Of a stretch of DNA of 64,000 bases, positions 8,526 through 41,021 are shown piece by piece. Below the pieces are notes generated by a model. That model saw nothing but the letters and a program-made list of their open reading frames with translations, did no database searches and was not told where the DNA came from. The DNA comes from Sphingomonas sp. AOB5 (GTDB lineage: Bacteria; Pseudomonadota; Alphaproteobacteria; Sphingomonadales; Sphingomonadaceae). Each line of letters begins with the position of its first letter. Position 1 is the first letter of the stretch. The translations under genes and the position numbers were made by a program. The stretch is from the NCBI RefSeq assembly GCF_029433115.1, contig NZ_JARNTV010000013.1, positions 1 through 64,000 on the forward strand, written 5' to 3'.

Positions 8526-9065
8526 TTACCCTCCCCTCGCCGGATAGAGGCCCGTGTTCGAGATGATGTAGCTGATCGCCACGCTGGGCATGCAATTCTC
8601 ATGGGCCTGGCCGCCGCCGGCCATTCCGATCGTTCCCCAATCCAGCAACGCGTCCTTCGGTTCGGTTGCCGTCGATGGAAGATAAAGGCCATTGGCGGAC
8701 GCGGCGGGAAGGCTCATTGGCGTTTTGTCCGTCGCCGGTAACGTGGTCGCGAATGCCGGATGCGAGTGGCTCGGCATCTGCGAGGGCCGCAGGAATACGT
8801 CGCTCAAGCCCCCATTCTCGCCCAATGCTCGCGGCGACAATGGGCCGTCCGCCGGCAGGTCCGCGCTGGCGCCCACGATCGTGCGTCCGCGCAGATCGGG
8901 CAGCGCGAAATTGTTCATCCCGTCGCCACCATAGGTGACGCCGATCAGGTTGAACAAAACCTCATAGTCGTTGATCTGCAGGAGCGATCCGTCGCACAGC
9001 AACCAGCCCTCCGGGGCGTAATTGCCGCCGAACGGCCGGATCTCCCCGACATAAGTTGCGCTCAT
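8526..9065 (-). CDS. Phage tail-collar domain protein, MdpB-like (array member 2)
   Basis: A 179-residue paralogue with MSATYVGEIRPFGG, PEGWLLCDGS, LIGVTYGGDGMNNFALPDLRGRT, the QMPSHSH segment and the closing HENCMPSVAISYII block. It ends five bases before the start of the next array member, so the genes are co-transcribed. No signal peptide or membrane segment is visible. The central region between the collar core and the HEN block is the most divergent part compared with its siblings, as expected if that part determines ligand binding (inference). Confidence 0.85.
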   Translation of the reverse strand: MSATYVGEIRPFGGNYAPEGWLLCDGSLLQINDYEVLFNLIGVTYGGDGMNNFALPDLRGRTIVGASADLPADGPLSPRALGENGGLSDVFLRPSQMPSHSHPAFATTLPATDKTPMSLPAASANGLYLPSTATEPKDALLDWGTIGMAGGGQAHENCMPSVAISYIISNTGLYPARGG

Positions 9066-9087
9066 CGATCCTCTCCCCCGCTTTGCA

Positions 9088-9636
9088 TCAGTCCCTCGTG
9101 GGGAAAACGCCGGTCACGGCGATGCAATAGATCATCACCAGATAGGGCTGCATATTCTCGTGCGGCGCATTGCCCCCCGCCACGCCGACGGTGTCGCCCG
9201 CCAGCGTGACGTTGTTGGCGCCCTGGTCCATCTGCGCATACAGGTTGCCCACGGCGTCCGCCGGGGTCGCCAGCCGGCCGGCCGAAGGATTGGGCGACCC
9301 AGCCGGGTTTGCGGTCGCAAGCCAGGCATGGGCATGCCCTCCCATCTGGCCCTTGGTGAGAGTCACGCTTTCGAGGCCGCCCTTGTCGCCCGGATTGATC
9401 GTACCACCGCCCTGCGTCGGCTGGGCCGGGGTCATCGTCGATCCGATCAGCGAGCGCGCGCGCAGGTCCGGCAGCGCGAAAGTGGTCCGTCCGTCGCCGC
9501 CATAGGTGGTGCCGATCAGCGAGAAGAGCGCCTTGTAGTCGCTGATCTTGAGCACACGCCCGTTGGCGGCCATCCAGCCCTTCGGCACGATGCCAGCCGA
9601 AAATGCGCGAATCTCGCCGAGATATGTCTCTGACAT
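9088..9636 (-). CDS. Phage tail-collar domain protein, MdpB-like (array member 3)
   Basis: A 182-residue paralogue with MSETYLGEIRAFSAG, PKGWMAANGR (the usual Cys-Asp-Gly is replaced by Ala-Asn-Gly), LIGTTYGGDGRTTFALPDLRAR, QMGGHAH and the terminal HENMQPYLVMIYCI block. It is separated by 22 bases from the member downstream and by 104 bases from the one upstream. That upstream gap holds an imperfect CCTGAAG/CTTCAGG inverted repeat near 9713-9753, which may end or pause transcription of the previous gene. Confidence 0.85.
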   Translation of the reverse strand: MSETYLGEIRAFSAGIVPKGWMAANGRVLKISDYKALFSLIGTTYGGDGRTTFALPDLRARSLIGSTMTPAQPTQGGGTINPGDKGGLESVTLTKGQMGGHAHAWLATANPAGSPNPSAGRLATPADAVGNLYAQMDQGANNVTLAGDTVGVAGGNAPHENMQPYLVMIYCIAVTGVFPTRD

Positions 9637-9740
9637 CGTGTACGGCCCCCCGGTCCGCGAAACGATCGATATAGTTCATCGAACATGAAGCTGTTCTTCC
9701 GGAATTTGAAGACCCTGAAGCGCGTTCCGGTCAAAAATCT

Positions 9741-10295
9741 TCAGGACCGGACCGGAATATATCCCTCGGTGCAGATGCAGATCGTCATCGCCAGAAAGGG
9801 CTGCCGGTTCTCATGGGATCCGAATCCGCCCGTATTCTCGATCATACCCTCGGCCATGATCCCCGCCTGATTGCTGGGAAAGGGCGGCCTCAACCATACC
9901 GGCGCAACCGTACCGGTGGCCGTGACGCAGCCGGACAGATAGTCTCCGTCTTGCGGATAGGCATGCATATTGGTTCCCGACTGGGGAAGCTTCCCCATCG
10001 CCTGATGGCCATGGACGGGCATCTGCCCTTCCGTCAGTTGCACGCTGGTGGTGCCGACAAAGGTACCGGCCGGATAGAGTGACGCGGTGTCCGCCGCAAA
10101 GCAGCCGATCAGCGTCGTGCCCTGCAGGTTGGGAACCGCGAAATTCTTTCCGGCCGTGCCGCCATAGATGTTTTCGATGACCGAATAGAGTCCCGGATAT
10201 TGTCTTACCGGATAGAGCGATCCATCGCAGGCCAGCCAGTCATAAGGGATGAAGTTCAAGGCGAAGGCGCGAATTTCCCCGATATAGGCGTCCAT
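9741..10295 (-). CDS. Phage tail-collar domain protein, MdpB-like (array member 4)
   Basis: A 184-residue paralogue with MDAYIGEIRAFALN, YDWLACDGS, NIYGGTAGKNFAVPNLQGTTL, QMPVHGH and the closing HENRQPFLAMTICI block. The VPNLQG core and the GDYLSGCVTATG segment match member 1 (GDWISGCVLPTG) more closely than the others, so members 1 and 4 form one subtype. The ATG at 10293-10295 is preceded by AGGAGA on the minus strand. The gap to the fused ORF upstream is 17 bases, consistent with one transcript. Confidence 0.85.
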   Translation of the reverse strand: MDAYIGEIRAFALNFIPYDWLACDGSLYPVRQYPGLYSVIENIYGGTAGKNFAVPNLQGTTLIGCFAADTASLYPAGTFVGTTSVQLTEGQMPVHGHQAMGKLPQSGTNMHAYPQDGDYLSGCVTATGTVAPVWLRPPFPSNQAGIMAEGMIENTGGFGSHENRQPFLAMTICICTEGYIPVRS

Positions 10296-10312
10296 CTTTC
10301 TCTCCTGTGGCC

Positions 10313-11434
10313 TTAGAGCTTCGGGAATTTGCCGTTCATCGCGATAATGTAGCTGATGGCGAGGCTGGGCATCCGGTTCTCGTGCGGCGCGCCCAACCCA
10401 ACCTGCATGATCGTCTCCCGGTCGAGCGGGGCGTCGACCGGATTGGGGGCGCCGCCGGAAAGGTAGAAGGTGTTGCCGGTCTGCGAAGCGCCCGGATAGC
10501 ATTGGAGAGGGACAGAGGAACTGCCGGGGGAGCCGCTGGCGCGGACCGCGTGCGTGTGGATCGGCATCGTTGCAGTGGTCAGGCGAACATGTTCCTCGCC
10601 ACCCCTGGCGCCCAGAGCCCGCGGCGTGAGACCCGGGGCGGGGTCCCCGTCGATGATCGCCCCGACGACCGTGATGCCGCGAAGATCGGGCAGCCCGAAA
10701 TTATTATTTCCGTCTCCGCCATAGGTCCTGCCGAGCATCGCGAAGAGCGAAGGAAATTGACGAATGCTCATGAGCGAGCCGTCGCACAGATGCCAGCTCA
10801 CCGGCGCAAAATTGCCTGCAAAGGGACGGATCTCGCCAAGAAACCAATCGCTCATGGAAATGCTCCAGGGACAGGGGTTGGTACCGTCAGCTGATGCTGG
10901 CTCATTTGGAGGGTAACTTCCCTGCACGCAGATGCAGTAGCTCATCGCGAGATAGGGCTGCATGTTGTCGTGGGGCATGCCGTTGCCGGTATTGCCCAGG
11001 GTCGCGGCGGCAAGCGTCACCGGAGACAGATCGCTGGTGTAGAGTGGGCCGGCAGCCGTGCCCACCTCGCAGAACCGGTTGTTCCTGGGGTTCGGCGCAT
11101 TGGCCACCCCGACTTCGCAAAACCAGTTGTGACGGTGCGCCGGGATCTGATCGACCATCAGCATCACCGTCTCCACCCCGCCTTTTGCGCCGATGGACAA
11201 GGATTGCCCGCCGGCGGTCGGCTGGTCCTCGTTCATGGTGCGGCCCATTATCGAACGGCTGCGCAGATCGGGAAGGGCGAACTGGGGGTAGTTGCCGCCG
11301 TATAAATTGCCGAGCAGTGTGTAGAGCGCGTTGTTCTCGTTCGCTTTCAGCAGGCGGCCGTCGCACGGCAGCCAGTTCTGGGGGATCCGGCTGTAAGGAA
11401 AAAGGCGAATCTCGCCAATATATGCAGCTAACAC
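10313..11434 (-). CDS. Double tail-collar protein (two MdpB-like domains in one ORF; array member 5)
   Basis: One uninterrupted 373-codon frame carries two complete collar domains. Domain A (about 1-190) starts LAAYIGEIRLF and ends HDNMQPYLAMSYCICVQ; domain B (about 194-373) starts MSDWFLGEIRPFAG and ends HENRMPSLAISYII. They are joined by a roughly 20-residue Pro/Ser linker. I chose GTG at 11432-11434, because GGAGG lies 7 bases upstream and it aligns with sibling N-termini. An internal ATG at 10853-10855 with GGAG 7 bases upstream could give a separate 180-residue product. Domain A also holds a short internal duplication around FCEVG. First gene of the array. Confidence 0.8.
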   Translation of the reverse strand: MLAAYIGEIRLFPYSRIPQNWLPCDGRLLKANENNALYTLLGNLYGGNYPQFALPDLRSRSIMGRTMNEDQPTAGGQSLSIGAKGGVETVMLMVDQIPAHRHNWFCEVGVANAPNPRNNRFCEVGTAAGPLYTSDLSPVTLAAATLGNTGNGMPHDNMQPYLAMSYCICVQGSYPPNEPASADGTNPCPWSISMSDWFLGEIRPFAGNFAPVSWHLCDGSLMSIRQFPSLFAMLGRTYGGDGNNNFGLPDLRGITVVGAIIDGDPAPGLTPRALGARGGEEHVRLTTATMPIHTHAVRASGSPGSSSVPLQCYPGASQTGNTFYLSGGAPNPVDAPLDRETIMQVGLGAPHENRMPSLAISYIIAMNGKFPKL

Positions 11435-37673: not shown

Positions 37674-39113
37674 TCACGCCTGCCGCGTCATCAGATCCCT
37701 GACGTCGGTCAGCCGCCCCGTTACCGCTGCTGCCGCGGCCATTGCCGGCGACAACAGATGCGTCCGGGCCCCCGGACCCTGCCTTCCTACAAAATTCCGA
37801 TTCGAGGTGGAAGCACAACGTTCGCCGCTAGGTACTTTATCGGGGTTCATCGCGAGACACATCGAGCAACCCGGCTCGCGCCACTGGAAGCCTGCTTCGG
37901 TGAAGATCCGGTCCAGTCCCTCGGCCTCGGCCTGGCGCTTTACCAGACCCGAACCCGGCACAATCAGCGCCTGACGCACGCCATCGGCGACATGGCGGCC
38001 CTCGACCACCGCAGCCGCGGCGCGCAGATCCTCGATCCGGCTGTTGGTGCAGCTGCCGATAAAGACATGTTCGATCGCCACGTCCTGCATCGCGGTGCCG
38101 GGCGTCAGGCCCATATAGTCGAGCGACTTCTGTGCCGCGACGCGCTTGGACGGATCGGCGAAGCTCTCCGGATCGGGGACCACGCCGGTGATCGGCACGA
38201 CGTCCTCGGGGCTGGTGCCCCAGGTGAGCGACGGCGCGATATCGGTCGCGTGGAGCTGGACGACGCTGTCGTAGCGCGCGCCCGGATCGCTGGGCAGCGT
38301 GCGCCAATAGGCGACGGCCTTGTCCCAATCCTCGCCCTGCGGCGCCATCGGGCGGCCCTTGAGGTAAGCGAAGGTCGTCTCATCCGGCGCGATCAGGCCC
38401 GACCGCGCGCCGCCTTCGATCGACATGTTCGAGACGGTCAACCGGCCCTCGATCGACATGTTGCGGATCACGTCGCCGGTAAACTCGATGACATAGCCGG
38501 TGCCGCCCGCAGCGCCGATCTTGCCGATGATCGCCAGGATCACATCCTTGGGGCTGACCCCGAAACCGAGTGAGCCATCGACGCGGATCTCCAGCGTCTT
38601 CGACTGACGCAGCAGCAAGGTCTGCGTCGCGAAGACATGCTCGACTTCGCTGGTGCCGATGCCGAACGCCAGCGCACCCAAAGCGCCGTGCGCCGAGGTA
38701 TGGCTGTCACCGCAAACCAGCGTCGTGCCCGGCAGGGTAAAGCCCTGCTCCGGCCCGACGACATGGACGATGCCCTGCTCGGCGGCGGTCGCGTCGATAT
38801 AGCGGATGCCGAACTCGGCAGTGTTCCGGCGCAGCGCAGCCAGCTGGTTCGCGCTCTCCGGATCGGCGATCGGCAGTTCGCGCCCCGCGGCATCGAGCCG
38901 CGCGGTGGTGGGCAGGTTATGGTCTGGCACTGCCAGGGTCAGATCGGGACGGCGCAGCTTGCGACCGGCCTCGCGAAGCCCGTCGAACGCCTGCGGGCTG
39001 GTCACCTCATGGATAAGGTGCCGGTCGATATAGACCAGACAGGTGCCATCATCCCGGCGCTCGACCACATGATCGGCCCAGATCTTCTCATACAGGGTGC
39101 GCGGACTCGCCAT
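37674..39113 (-). CDS. leuC: 3-isopropylmalate dehydratase large subunit
   Basis: A 479-residue aconitase-type protein. Start [13 protein letters not shown], catalytic-site segments [13 protein letters not shown] and [13 protein letters not shown], and the [4Fe-4S] ligands CTNSR and CSMCLAMN are all present. It leads the leucine operon leuC - small peptide - lactonase-like - leuD - quinone reductase on the minus strand. Confidence 0.96.
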
Positions 39114-39179
39114 GGGCGCGGTCTAGTCGAATCGTGCGCACCTGCAAGCATCGCCGCAATTTTCCATCGCGAAGCCCAG

Positions 39180-40181
39180 CTATCTGGTGGCGAGCAGCCA
39201 GATCGCCACTGCGGCGAACAACGCGAGCATGAGAATCTGAAGGAAGATGAGGGGGTAATAGACAAGATAATCCATCAAACCCCTGCCGACCGGCGGCAGG
39301 ACAATCCCTCGCGCCGCAAGGTGGCGATTTATTTCCGCGCGAAACAGGACCGATGGATTCATCGTACACGTGACGCGGGCCAGCGCCAGATATCCATATC
39401 CTGGAACTTTCCCCGTGACGGCGGCGAAGAAAGACTTCAAGTGCCGGATTCCCTGAGAATAATCGTAGAAGCGACGATATTCCGGGAAATAGGTTGCACG
39501 CCCCTTGTCGAAGGACAGGAAGGCGCATCGATACCCTTCATAGGGTATCGGCACACCCAACTGCCAGATATTCTTCGAGAATTGACTGACATCGAAGTCA
39601 GGGACGTCGACCCAGGGAATGAAGAATATTACCTTCCCCAGCATTTTACGCTCGATGATCGCTGCCACTTCCCATTGCAATCCGCTCGATGCCCCAACGT
39701 GCACGACGATCAGCTGCGCAGCCTCGATCAGCCGGACGACTTCCTGTTGCCACTCTTCATCGGGCAGATAGCGCCGACCAGCCCCCAGCGTCGGGAGTTC
39801 CTCACCAGGACGTCCAATCGCGACGAAGTTGAATGCGCCACCCAACGCGCGGGAGACCGACTGTTCTGACGTCTCGAAGAGCGACAAACTGTTCTTGTTG
39901 CTGGCGATATGCGCGTCATGCTCGAAAGAACGAAGATAAAGCGCCGTCGGAAGCGTCTCGTCCACGGCATCGGACGCGCCACTCTCGACCAGGCGATACT
40001 GCCGAATCCTGTTGATATTCGTTCCAACCAGGATCGCTATAATTGACAGTGGAATGATCGCGATCGACTTGGCGATGCCTTTCGAATCGAAATATTCCCC
40101 TATAGCCACCGCGACCAGCATCACGACGATCGCCCCGGCGCAACCGAAGGACGTTGCGAGATAGGCCCTGGTCTTGCTCAT
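39180..40181 (-). CDS. Membrane-anchored TIR-like domain protein
   Basis: A 333-residue protein with two N-terminal membrane helices (about 8-28, 37-54), a cytosolic domain and a C-terminal helix pair (about 300-330). The middle reads ALYLRSFEHDAHI, AIGRPGEELPTLGAGRRYLPDEEW and then AQLIVVHVGASSGLQWEVAAIIE: a strand-helix order with Ser-Ser and Trp-Glu (E171) where TIR NADases have their WxxE catalytic segment. The DNA is poorer in GC than its neighbours. A nucleotide-sensing or defence role is inference, and no family name is certain. Confidence 0.6.
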   Translation of the reverse strand: MSKTRAYLATSFGCAGAIVVMLVAVAIGEYFDSKGIAKSIAIIPLSIIAILVGTNINRIRQYRLVESGASDAVDETLPTALYLRSFEHDAHIASNKNSLSLFETSEQSVSRALGGAFNFVAIGRPGEELPTLGAGRRYLPDEEWQQEVVRLIEAAQLIVVHVGASSGLQWEVAAIIERKMLGKVIFFIPWVDVPDFDVSQFSKNIWQLGVPIPYEGYRCAFLSFDKGRATYFPEYRRFYDYSQGIRHLKSFFAAVTGKVPGYGYLALARVTCTMNPSVLFRAEINRHLAARGIVLPPVGRGLMDYLVYYPLIFLQILMLALFAAVAIWLLATR

Positions 40182-40184
40182 CCG

Positions 40185-41021
40185 TTATTGTTGTTCCGCC
40201 TGTTTCTTCAGATAGGCGTGGATCGCATCGATCTCGGGATCGGTCAGCACCGCATAGCCGCCCAGCGCCGCGGTGCGCATCATGCCAAGGTCTCGATTGG
40301 TCATGCCGACGCCGGTGTGGAGCAGCTTGCGGAACGCCGCGGTGTCGTAGCTGGCGGCCATGGCGGCCAGCGGCGGGACGATCTGCTTGCCGTCGTCCGA
40401 CGGGCGCTCACGGTCCATCGCGTGGCAGCCCAGGCACGACGTCTGCACCACATATTGCCCCATGTCCGCGGGACGCTGCTTCGGCGCGGCGCTCAGATCG
40501 TGCGCGCTGCCCTTGAACATGCCGGTCAGCACCAGCGCGCGGCCGACGGGTCCGAAGCTGGTGTTGCGCGTCTCGTCCTTGGGGCCAGGCTTCACGCTGC
40601 GGATCCAGGCGATGATCCGGCCCATATCGTCATCGGCGATATAGGCATGCGAGGCGCTGGGCATGACCCACAGGGTCGTCCCGTCGCGCCGCACGCCCTG
40701 ACGCACCGCGCGGACGATCTCCGCATCACTGTAGCGACTGGCGATATCGGCAAAGGCGGGCGGCGCGATGCGGCCGAGCATCGGGTCGTCGAGCAGCACC
40801 AGCCCCTCACCGCTTGCGCCATGACAGTCGCGGCAACCCATCACCCGCGCCATCCGCCCGCCCTCGGCGATCGAGGCAGCGTCTTTCGGCACCGCGACAG
40901 TATCGAGCGGTGCGGCGTGGCTGCGGCTCAGCACCCATTGCGAACCGCCATAGACCACCGCCAGCGCCAGCACGATCAGTCCCGCCAGACCGATCCCCAC
41001 CCTTTTCGCGATACGCACCAT
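40185..41021 (-). CDS. Membrane-anchored dihaem cytochrome c
   Basis: A 278-residue protein with one N-terminal anchor (GLAGLIVLALAVVYGGSQWVL), then two class I haem sites: CRDCH with distal Met in WVMPSAS, and CLGCH with Met in VGMTNRD or MMRTAALGG. It should carry electrons in the periplasm; partner unknown. A perfect dyad lies 17 bases upstream of its start (see operator). Confidence 0.9.
   Translation of the reverse strand: MVRIAKRVGIGLAGLIVLALAVVYGGSQWVLSRSHAAPLDTVAVPKDAASIAEGGRMARVMGCRDCHGASGEGLVLLDDPMLGRIAPPAFADIASRYSDAEIVRAVRQGVRRDGTTLWVMPSASHAYIADDDMGRIIAWIRSVKPGPKDETRNTSFGPVGRALVLTGMFKGSAHDLSAAPKQRPADMGQYVVQTSCLGCHAMDRERPSDDGKQIVPPLAAMAASYDTAAFRKLLHTGVGMTNRDLGMMRTAALGGYAVLTDPEIDAIHAYLKKQAEQQ

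Follow-up and report, generated by a model that had tools for sequence, protein, structure and literature searches.

The window, by which we mean the whole stretch of 64,000 nucleotides analysed, carries on its minus strand a single intact ORF, the translation of which is 333 residues in length (Table 1). LYLRSF, GRPGEELPTLGA and SSGLQWE, the motifs that the initial annotation had singled out together with Glu171, are all present in the translated ORF, and residue 171 is indeed a glutamate. The choice of these motifs was more than chance, as they contain most of the invariant columns of the 63-sequence family described below. Within the host genome, the sole significant match to the protein is the gene itself. 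On one side, the stop of a cytochrome c gene is located 3 nt ahead of the ATG; on the other side, the leuC-like gene, which we take to encode the isopropylmalate dehydratase large subunit, begins 66 nt beyond the end.

Table 1. Positions of the TIR-like gene, its predicted parts and its two neighbours in the window
Feature	Position	Strand	Basis
Predicted membrane-anchored TIR-like gene	39180..40181	-	ORF and translation; ATG at 40181, stop at 39180-39182
Predicted membrane helix 1, residues ~9-27	40101..40157	-	Hydropathy
Predicted membrane helix 2, residues ~35-53	40023..40079	-	Hydropathy and charge count
TIR-like α/β domain (putative), residues 70-262	39396..39974	-	63-row alignment A4, AlphaFold model, TIR profile match
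Glu171 codon, predicted catalytic glutamate	39669..39671	-	63/63 identity, TIR-profile alignment, model helix
Predicted C-terminal membrane helix, residues ~309-330	39192..39257	-	Hydropathy
Upstream neighbour, cytochrome c, two haem-binding stretches	40185..41021	-	Pfam, sequence
Downstream neighbour, presumably LeuC-like isopropylmalate dehydratase large subunit	37674..39113	-	Translation

Hydropathy analysis of the window protein gave two N-terminal segments, a soluble middle part and one C-terminal segment. A fourth segment was not detected, the hydropathy window starts sampled from 261 to 300 being all under threshold. The protein had been described as carrying two pairs of membrane helices; the membrane tether is supported, but by three predicted helices (two N-terminal and one C-terminal) instead of four. 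After predicted helix 2 lies one Arg-rich stretch, NRIRQYR, which by the positive-inside rule suggests that the central domain is cytoplasmic.

The TIR-like gene has a GC content of 56%, whereas 50 ORFs called mechanically in the window average 65.4% (sd 2.6); this set includes the gene itself and perhaps some spurious frames. The kilobase 39001-40000 has the lowest GC of the 64 in the window, 57.2%; the next lowest is 61.1%. The lower GC noted at the outset is thus borne out. The codon choice, which had also been said to differ, was measured as GC3 only and is mildly shifted, with a GC3 of 0.68 for the gene versus 0.78 (sd 0.085).

A close LeuC homologue is present in 40 of the 41 genomes of our genus sample, the host's own included. 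Thirty of these leuC loci were examined, and in none of the 29 from genomes other than that of the window was the TIR-like gene found within the locus and its 1.5 kb flanks. One of them, L234, has the same gene order as the window (epimerase, cytochrome c, leuC, lactonase, leuD) and no TIR-like gene; ~49 nt separate its cytochrome c stop from leuC. Because this one relative has the neighbours without the gene, the window gene looks like an insertion at the junction of cytochrome c and leuC. The gene is also absent from 36 other same-genus genomes (E 1e-10) and from five listed same-genus genomes at E 1e-3, one of which is shared with the 36. Protein search across the taxonomic family found 4 positive genomes out of 298, and profile search across the class found 5 out of 337; both counts include the host and are lower bounds. 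Low GC, absence from the sampled same-genus genomes and L234 all agree with the initial annotation, which called the gene compositionally foreign; it was apparently acquired from elsewhere.

The window copy is solitary among metabolic genes. No match to the 8xMP, SLOG-like, DUF4328, patatin, TIR or deoxyribosyltransferase profiles built in this work was observed in the 64 kb of the window, and 8xMP was not found in the host genome. The host strain seems to be rich in TIR proteins: seven TIR_2 genes exceed the cut-off, with eight matches in total, on contigs C89, C74, C67, C109, C106, C55 and C24, whereas each of the 24 other same-genus genomes sampled gave at most two TIR_2 matches.

Used as a single query, the window protein matched no Pfam family up to E 10, no entry in PADLOC, NCBIfam or the PDB sequences, and nothing in the first scan of genome contigs or in phages. 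Seed alignments were built from matches in same-family genomes and in Streptomyces and Embleya plasmids. Relatives were collected by pattern scan and confirmed by tblastn; 80 of the 82 confirmed loci, together with one locus from a viral collection, form the 81-locus set. The domain census comprises 80 frames, with L042 dropped, as its domain is split over two frames. In that locus (9062-10681, Rhizobium sp. BK251), the split of the family gene represents either a frameshift or an assembly error. The viral-collection locus, L016, is an IMG/VR contig that is filed as viral and bears the family gene; it is probably bacterial, because the gene upstream presumably encodes an alanyl-tRNA synthetase, to judge from how it reads.

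The membrane segments of the relatives were counted on stop-to-stop frames. All 80 frames have a hydrophobic segment ahead of the domain and 55 also have one after it; the number of upstream segments varies from 1 to 10 per relative. The tree of 83 rows covers nine labelled phyla; in it, the branch of the window row is long (2.62), and this row has no supported neighbours. Eight residues, Arg84, Phe86, Gly123, Pro125, Gly133, Arg136, Trp144 and Glu171, are identical in 63 of 63 rows, and Trp170 is kept in 62. The position six ahead of Glu171 is Ser or Thr in 38 of the 63 rows and Gly in 20. The window protein deviates at 117 and 118, where nearly all other rows have Gly and Pro; it retains Asp89, Glu106, Gly126, Glu127, Tyr138 and Trp170 along with Glu171.

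Member scans against Pfam, PADLOC and NCBIfam gave no name for the family at the sensitivity used. Single-member matches to PADLOC PDC-M34B and Cas8e and to five NCBIfam models were judged to be chance, as were the matches of the A4 profile to PDB sequences, the best of which were designed TIM barrels and the others short. Ten long relatives were also scanned, and eight of them have no Pfam family up to E 0.01; L058 has one below-cut-off match and L093 an MFS match. In L093 (8078-10888), one 937-residue open frame contains an MFS (ATG22-like) region and the family domain; this could reflect a genuine fusion, or else a frame that was extended beyond its start. One Altererythrobacter genome carries two divergent family paralogues, L050 and L064, on contig CANLLZ010000001.1, and one of the two has an RDD match below the cut-off. 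The literature searched, including the portions available of PMC9503650, PMC7159879 and PMC11256431, yielded no description of the family, and an earlier one may exist. What we describe is no new fold or principle; it is a branch without a name in the libraries searched.

To place the branch, its alignment was compared with four profiles using hhalign. The probabilities were 88% for TIR_2, 49% for ThsB_TIR, 1.6% for nucleoside deoxyribosyltransferase and 1.9% for the response regulator, which served as control. After the alignment had been trimmed of columns occupied in fewer than half of the rows, the corresponding probabilities were 82%, 35%, 1.8% and 0.8%, and the scores were 38.2, 28.8, 19.3 and 16.0, respectively. 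Column shuffles of the trimmed alignment (75 in number) were taken as the null. Their maximal scores were 19.6 for TIR_2, 16.5 for ThsB_TIR, 17.0 for nucleoside deoxyribosyltransferase and 20.9 for the response regulator; the mean was 10.4 (sd 2.1) for TIR_2 and 9.8 (sd 1.8) for ThsB_TIR. The control score was reached by 2 of the 75 shuffles. One earlier shuffle control had been set aside, as it gave absurdly high scores for all four targets, the control included. With a score of 38.2 versus a shuffle maximum of 19.6, the profile homology to TIR is beyond chance.

In the TIR_2, ThsB_TIR and deoxyribosyltransferase alignments, Glu171 is paired in each case with a glutamate of the partner profile, which we take to be the catalytic one. 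At the position of this glutamate in the TIR profile, all 63 rows carry a glutamate. Single members matched Pfam weakly. TIR_2 was matched most often, by 3 of 63 members with a best E value of 0.011; ThsB_TIR was matched by one member of 63 (E 0.19), and Nuc_deoxyrib_tr (PF05014) by none of the 63 up to E 5, with an hhalign probability below 2%. The window protein lies below the curated TIR cut-off (PF13676/PF01582), and 0.011 is the best E value among the 63 members scanned. At the level of sequence profiles, these data establish a family that is related to TIR, with Glu171 on the TIR-profile glutamate. The description of the protein as TIR-like is supported by these profiles and by the invariance of Glu171.

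The AlphaFold model of the window domain (55 rows) has a pLDDT of 81 and a pTM of 0.83; for the Streptomyces domain (63 rows), the values are 89 and 0.86, respectively. The models are confident and Rossmann-like, and they concur in the order of the main elements: strands and helices alternate, and more than five strands are listed. The TIR / deoxyribohydrolase / SLOG class is characterised by a three-layer sandwich around a central 5-stranded sheet. Glu171 resides within model helix 97-108, which follows strand 88-92. Counted plainly, this strand is the fourth; it becomes the third of the core if short strand 66-69 is regarded as an additional one.

In the fold comparison, the window model matched DNPH1 (Z 9.5, 3.2 Å over 119 residues), one chain of an IL-17RA/RB/ACT1 complex (9.0), SfSTING (8.8), MilB (8.6), an unrelated glycosyltransferase (8.5) and AbTir (8.2). 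TIR-type chains, with Z of 7.9-9.0, are thus on a par with DNPH1, with MilB and with unrelated Rossmann folds. For the second model, Z was 8.0 for DNPH1, 7.9 for MilB, 7.2 for unrelated folds and 6.3-6.6 for TIR chains; the tool itself notes that queries lacking a true relative commonly reach a top Z of 7 to 8. Foldseek gave zero matches past E 0.001 for either model; it ranked Rv3272 first for one of the models and the methyltransferase CmcI first for the other, both of them unrelated proteins with E values above 0.001. The initial annotation had proposed a fold search against TIR and had named a fold without TIR-like topology as the result that would speak against it. The predicted fold would accommodate a TIR-like topology but does not single TIR out, as DNPH1 and unrelated folds tie with it or outrank it. 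The fold is likewise compatible with the TIR / deoxyribohydrolase / SLOG class, to which the best matches (DNPH1, MilB and, for one model, TIR) belong, without proving it, since these matches exceed unrelated folds by little; the TIR claim rests on the sequence profiles.

To describe the surroundings of the relatives, HMMs derived from their neighbours were run on the six-frame ORFs of the 81 loci, and the seeds of each profile were counted. The gene calls of the loci came from a simple script and include spurious frames, and some loci end at contig edges. 8xMP was matched strongly in 15 of 81 loci, at most ~1.4 kb from the family gene, and weakly in one more. SLOG-like proteins were present in 13 loci (two of them 4 to 5 kb off), patatin in three (L072, L088 and L091), and TIR matches in six (one weak, up to 7 kb off). 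DUF4328, a gene with no role assigned, was matched in 16 of 81. At least one tested partner was found in 24 of 81 loci, or 25 if the weak 8xMP match is counted; 57 loci lack all tested partners when strong matches alone are considered, and 56 do so once the weak one is included. Both 8xMP and SLOG-like genes were observed in eight loci (L021, L024, L031, L035, L036, L061, L066 and L080), where they are clearly adjacent. SLOG-like matches are spread over several phyla, and two Caulobacterales loci have a divergent gene that unites SLOG-like and DUF4231/SLATT_3-like parts. Five plasmid records bear the family; three of them also bear 8xMP, ~1.0 to 2.7 kb off, and one of these three, the S. nigrescens plasmid, is locus L074 too.

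Among the neighbours, Pfam identified 8xMP (one with SLATT_1 below the cut-off), DUF4328 and TIR_2; among further neighbours, it identified Patatin, TPR-S, SEFIR, DUF4231 and, over the cut-off in L088, SLATT_1. SLATT_3 and the YAcAr SLOG family were matched below the cut-off. Three SLOG-like proteins from different Streptomyces loci, and a fourth one, have no family name in Pfam, so the SLOG name is provisional; it comes from motif likeness and from a cross-match to L084, whose own YAcAr (SLOG) match is below the cut-off. PADLOC gave phospholipase effector matches for the patatins of L091 and L088 and a TIR effector match for the TPR-S protein of L091; none of its models fits the family.

A per-genome background count was made for 8xMP only. 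Among 36 actinomycete genomes, 22 have 8xMP over the cut-off, at a copy number of one or two per genome of 7 to 11 Mb, and 14 have none over it. In 15 of the 22, 8xMP adjoins the family gene, and in the other 7 it lies outside the fetched locus. Chance adjacency in 15 genomes, though related ones, is very unlikely. The 15 8xMP-linked loci have a median of 0 other neighbour families in common (0 in 78 of 105 pairs), which argues that the linkage survives moves to unlike surroundings. For nine Lentzea-type loci, the median is 8 (36 pairs); this group looks vertically inherited and shows no tested partners. Homologues confined to housekeeping operons, the outcome that would have counted against a defence setting, were thus not what we observed, given partner genes in 24 of 81 loci. 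The proposed setting is supported by gene neighbourhood for that part of the relatives, but the window copy itself has metabolic neighbours.

Several loci have further genes near the family gene. In L031 (6567-9113, Streptomyces naganishii), one 849-residue TIR_2 frame (E 2e-20) ends 111 nt before the family frame. In a Vicinamibacteria MAG (L046, 3877-8397), one 1507-residue frame with WD40 repeats and a TIR match (E 7.5e-17) ends 4 nt ahead of the family's open frame. Amycolatopsis L071 (1884-7946) contains a SEFIR/TIR protein, a second TIR match and a SLOG-like gene, all within ~7 kb of the family gene. In the Planctomycetota/Verrucomicrobiota loci L072, L088 and L091, patatin lies close to the family gene and in the same orientation, accompanied by TPR-S in L072 and L091 and by SLATT_1 in L088, likewise on that strand; the three could represent a single conserved system. 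Two distant proteobacteria (L079, 9115-9531; L083, 9110-9532) have a small protein of ~140 residues upstream of the family gene, alike by eye in the two loci and with no Pfam match.

We propose that the family is a membrane-anchored, divergent branch of TIR-class N-glycosidases working in nucleotide-signalling conflict systems. Taken as a whole, this reading has in our judgement slightly less than an even chance of being right. That the family belongs to the TIR / deoxyribohydrolase / SLOG class is highly probable; that its domain is catalytic is reasonably probable, and the chance that it has a conflict role is a little better than even. In this scheme, a signal such as phage or envelope damage would be sensed and the domain would be activated at the membrane. 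There, on its inner face, NAD+ or a related nucleotide would be split at an N-glycosidic bond in a reaction driven by Glu171. In relatives with a cassette, a SLOG-like protein would read the product and the membrane would be the target of an 8xMP/SLATT-like protein or a patatin; for solitary copies such as that of the window, loss of NAD itself may be enough as effect. A more specific version, which we consider possible but doubtful, is one immune cassette consisting of the membrane TIR-class enzyme, a SLOG-like sensor and 8xMP/SLATT, or patatin, in which the signal would be made right beside the channel or lipase and solitary copies would be one-gene versions. The SLOG-like and 8xMP/SLATT components are separate genes in Streptomyces and apparently one gene in two Caulobacterales.

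The alternatives overlap, and their odds do not add up to one. One alternative is a deoxyribohydrolase-like enzyme of the DNPH1 or MilB type, not TIR, that would clip nucleoside monophosphates instead of NAD+ with the same glutamate: DNPH1 is the top structural match for both models and MilB the second for the second model, and the nucleoside deoxyribosyltransferase profile, which pairs its own glutamate with Glu171, scored above all 75 shuffles. We regard this as unlikely, however, as its profile similarity is far weaker than that of TIR (19.3 versus 38.2, probability <2%), no member of the 63 matched Nuc_deoxyrib_tr, and DNPH1 and the best TIR-type chains are within 1 Z for the window model. 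The domain may instead be a non-enzymatic sensor or scaffold that binds an ADP-ribose-type signal and relays it to the membrane part. The class includes non-catalytic sensors, according to the portion available of PMC9503650, and a constant domain with a varying membrane region (1 to 10 upstream segments) is what a sensor module would be expected to show. Nevertheless, the invariance of Glu171, Arg84 and Arg136 in 63 of 63 rows from nine phyla is beyond the usual demand of plain binding, and we consider such a role rather improbable.

A housekeeping membrane protein, involved in envelope or transport regulation and with defence-type neighbours only in certain lineages, would explain the shared surroundings of the nine Lentzea-type loci (median 8 families), the metabolic neighbours of the window copy, the L093 frame continuing from an MFS transporter region and the 57 of 81 loci without tested partners by strong matches. 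However, the family is uncommon and scattered, with 4 positives among 298 family genomes and 5 among 337 class genomes (own included, as lower bounds); 36 other same-genus genomes lack the gene; and the 8xMP and SLOG-like genes turn up repeatedly as partners in dissimilar genomic settings, SLOG-like in several phyla. We consider a purely housekeeping role with no part in conflict unlikely. For the window copy alone, decay or orphaning of a larger system has to be weighed, which is compatible with the reading we prefer for the family. Its long branch, the deviations at 117 and 118, the lack of tested partner genes in the window and of 8xMP in the genome are in line with a remnant. But the frame is intact, Glu171, Asp89, Glu106, Gly126, Glu127, Tyr138 and Trp170 are all retained, and the start 3 nt past the upstream stop is arranged as in translational coupling. 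SpbK, a TIR protein, reportedly acts alone. Single TIR proteins can defend, as the part available of PMC12847820 describes for SpbK. A remnant is the least probable of these alternatives.

TIR-class enzymes form a core that the innate immunity of bacteria, plants and animals has in common. A branch of them that is tethered to the membrane, has a signature of its own and in several lineages is linked to genes of the 8xMP/SLATT-like, SLOG-like and patatin types would be a concrete new target for phage-defence work, and with it one could test directly if TIR-made nucleotides gate membrane proteins of this kind.

Compared with known systems, the family resembles Thoeris (ThsA/ThsB) in having a TIR-class enzyme as presumed source of a nucleotide signal, and differs from it in the domain, ThsB_TIR being matched by that one member alone. 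DNPH1, MilB and nucleoside deoxyribosyltransferase, the DrHyd enzymes, are similar in being the top fold matches and in the alignment of the deoxyribosyltransferase glutamate with Glu171; their sequence-profile similarity to the family is weak and, to our knowledge, they have no membrane anchor. The portions available of PMC9503650 and PMC7159879 describe SLATT as an effector in the membrane that responds to nucleotides and is found next to TIR genes. Like SLOG-SLATT systems, relatives adjoin 8xMP with weak SLATT_1 likeness, DUF4231/SLATT_3-like genes and SLOG-like genes, and the neighbour of one relative is a SLATT_1 protein over the cut-off; different from them, the window copy has no tested partner genes, and the SLOG-SLATT accounts in those portions of PMC9503650 and PMC7159879 do not mention a membrane TIR-like family. 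The closest likeness is to TIR_2 (PF13676) and ThsB_TIR (PF08937), which have the highest profile similarity of the four compared and the TIR glutamate at Glu171. Different from TIR, no family member does better than E 0.011 in Pfam, the members have membrane segments on one or both sides of the domain, and the family has marks of its own, the Trp directly before the Glu and the G-x-P-G-E...G-A-x-R-x-Y stretch.
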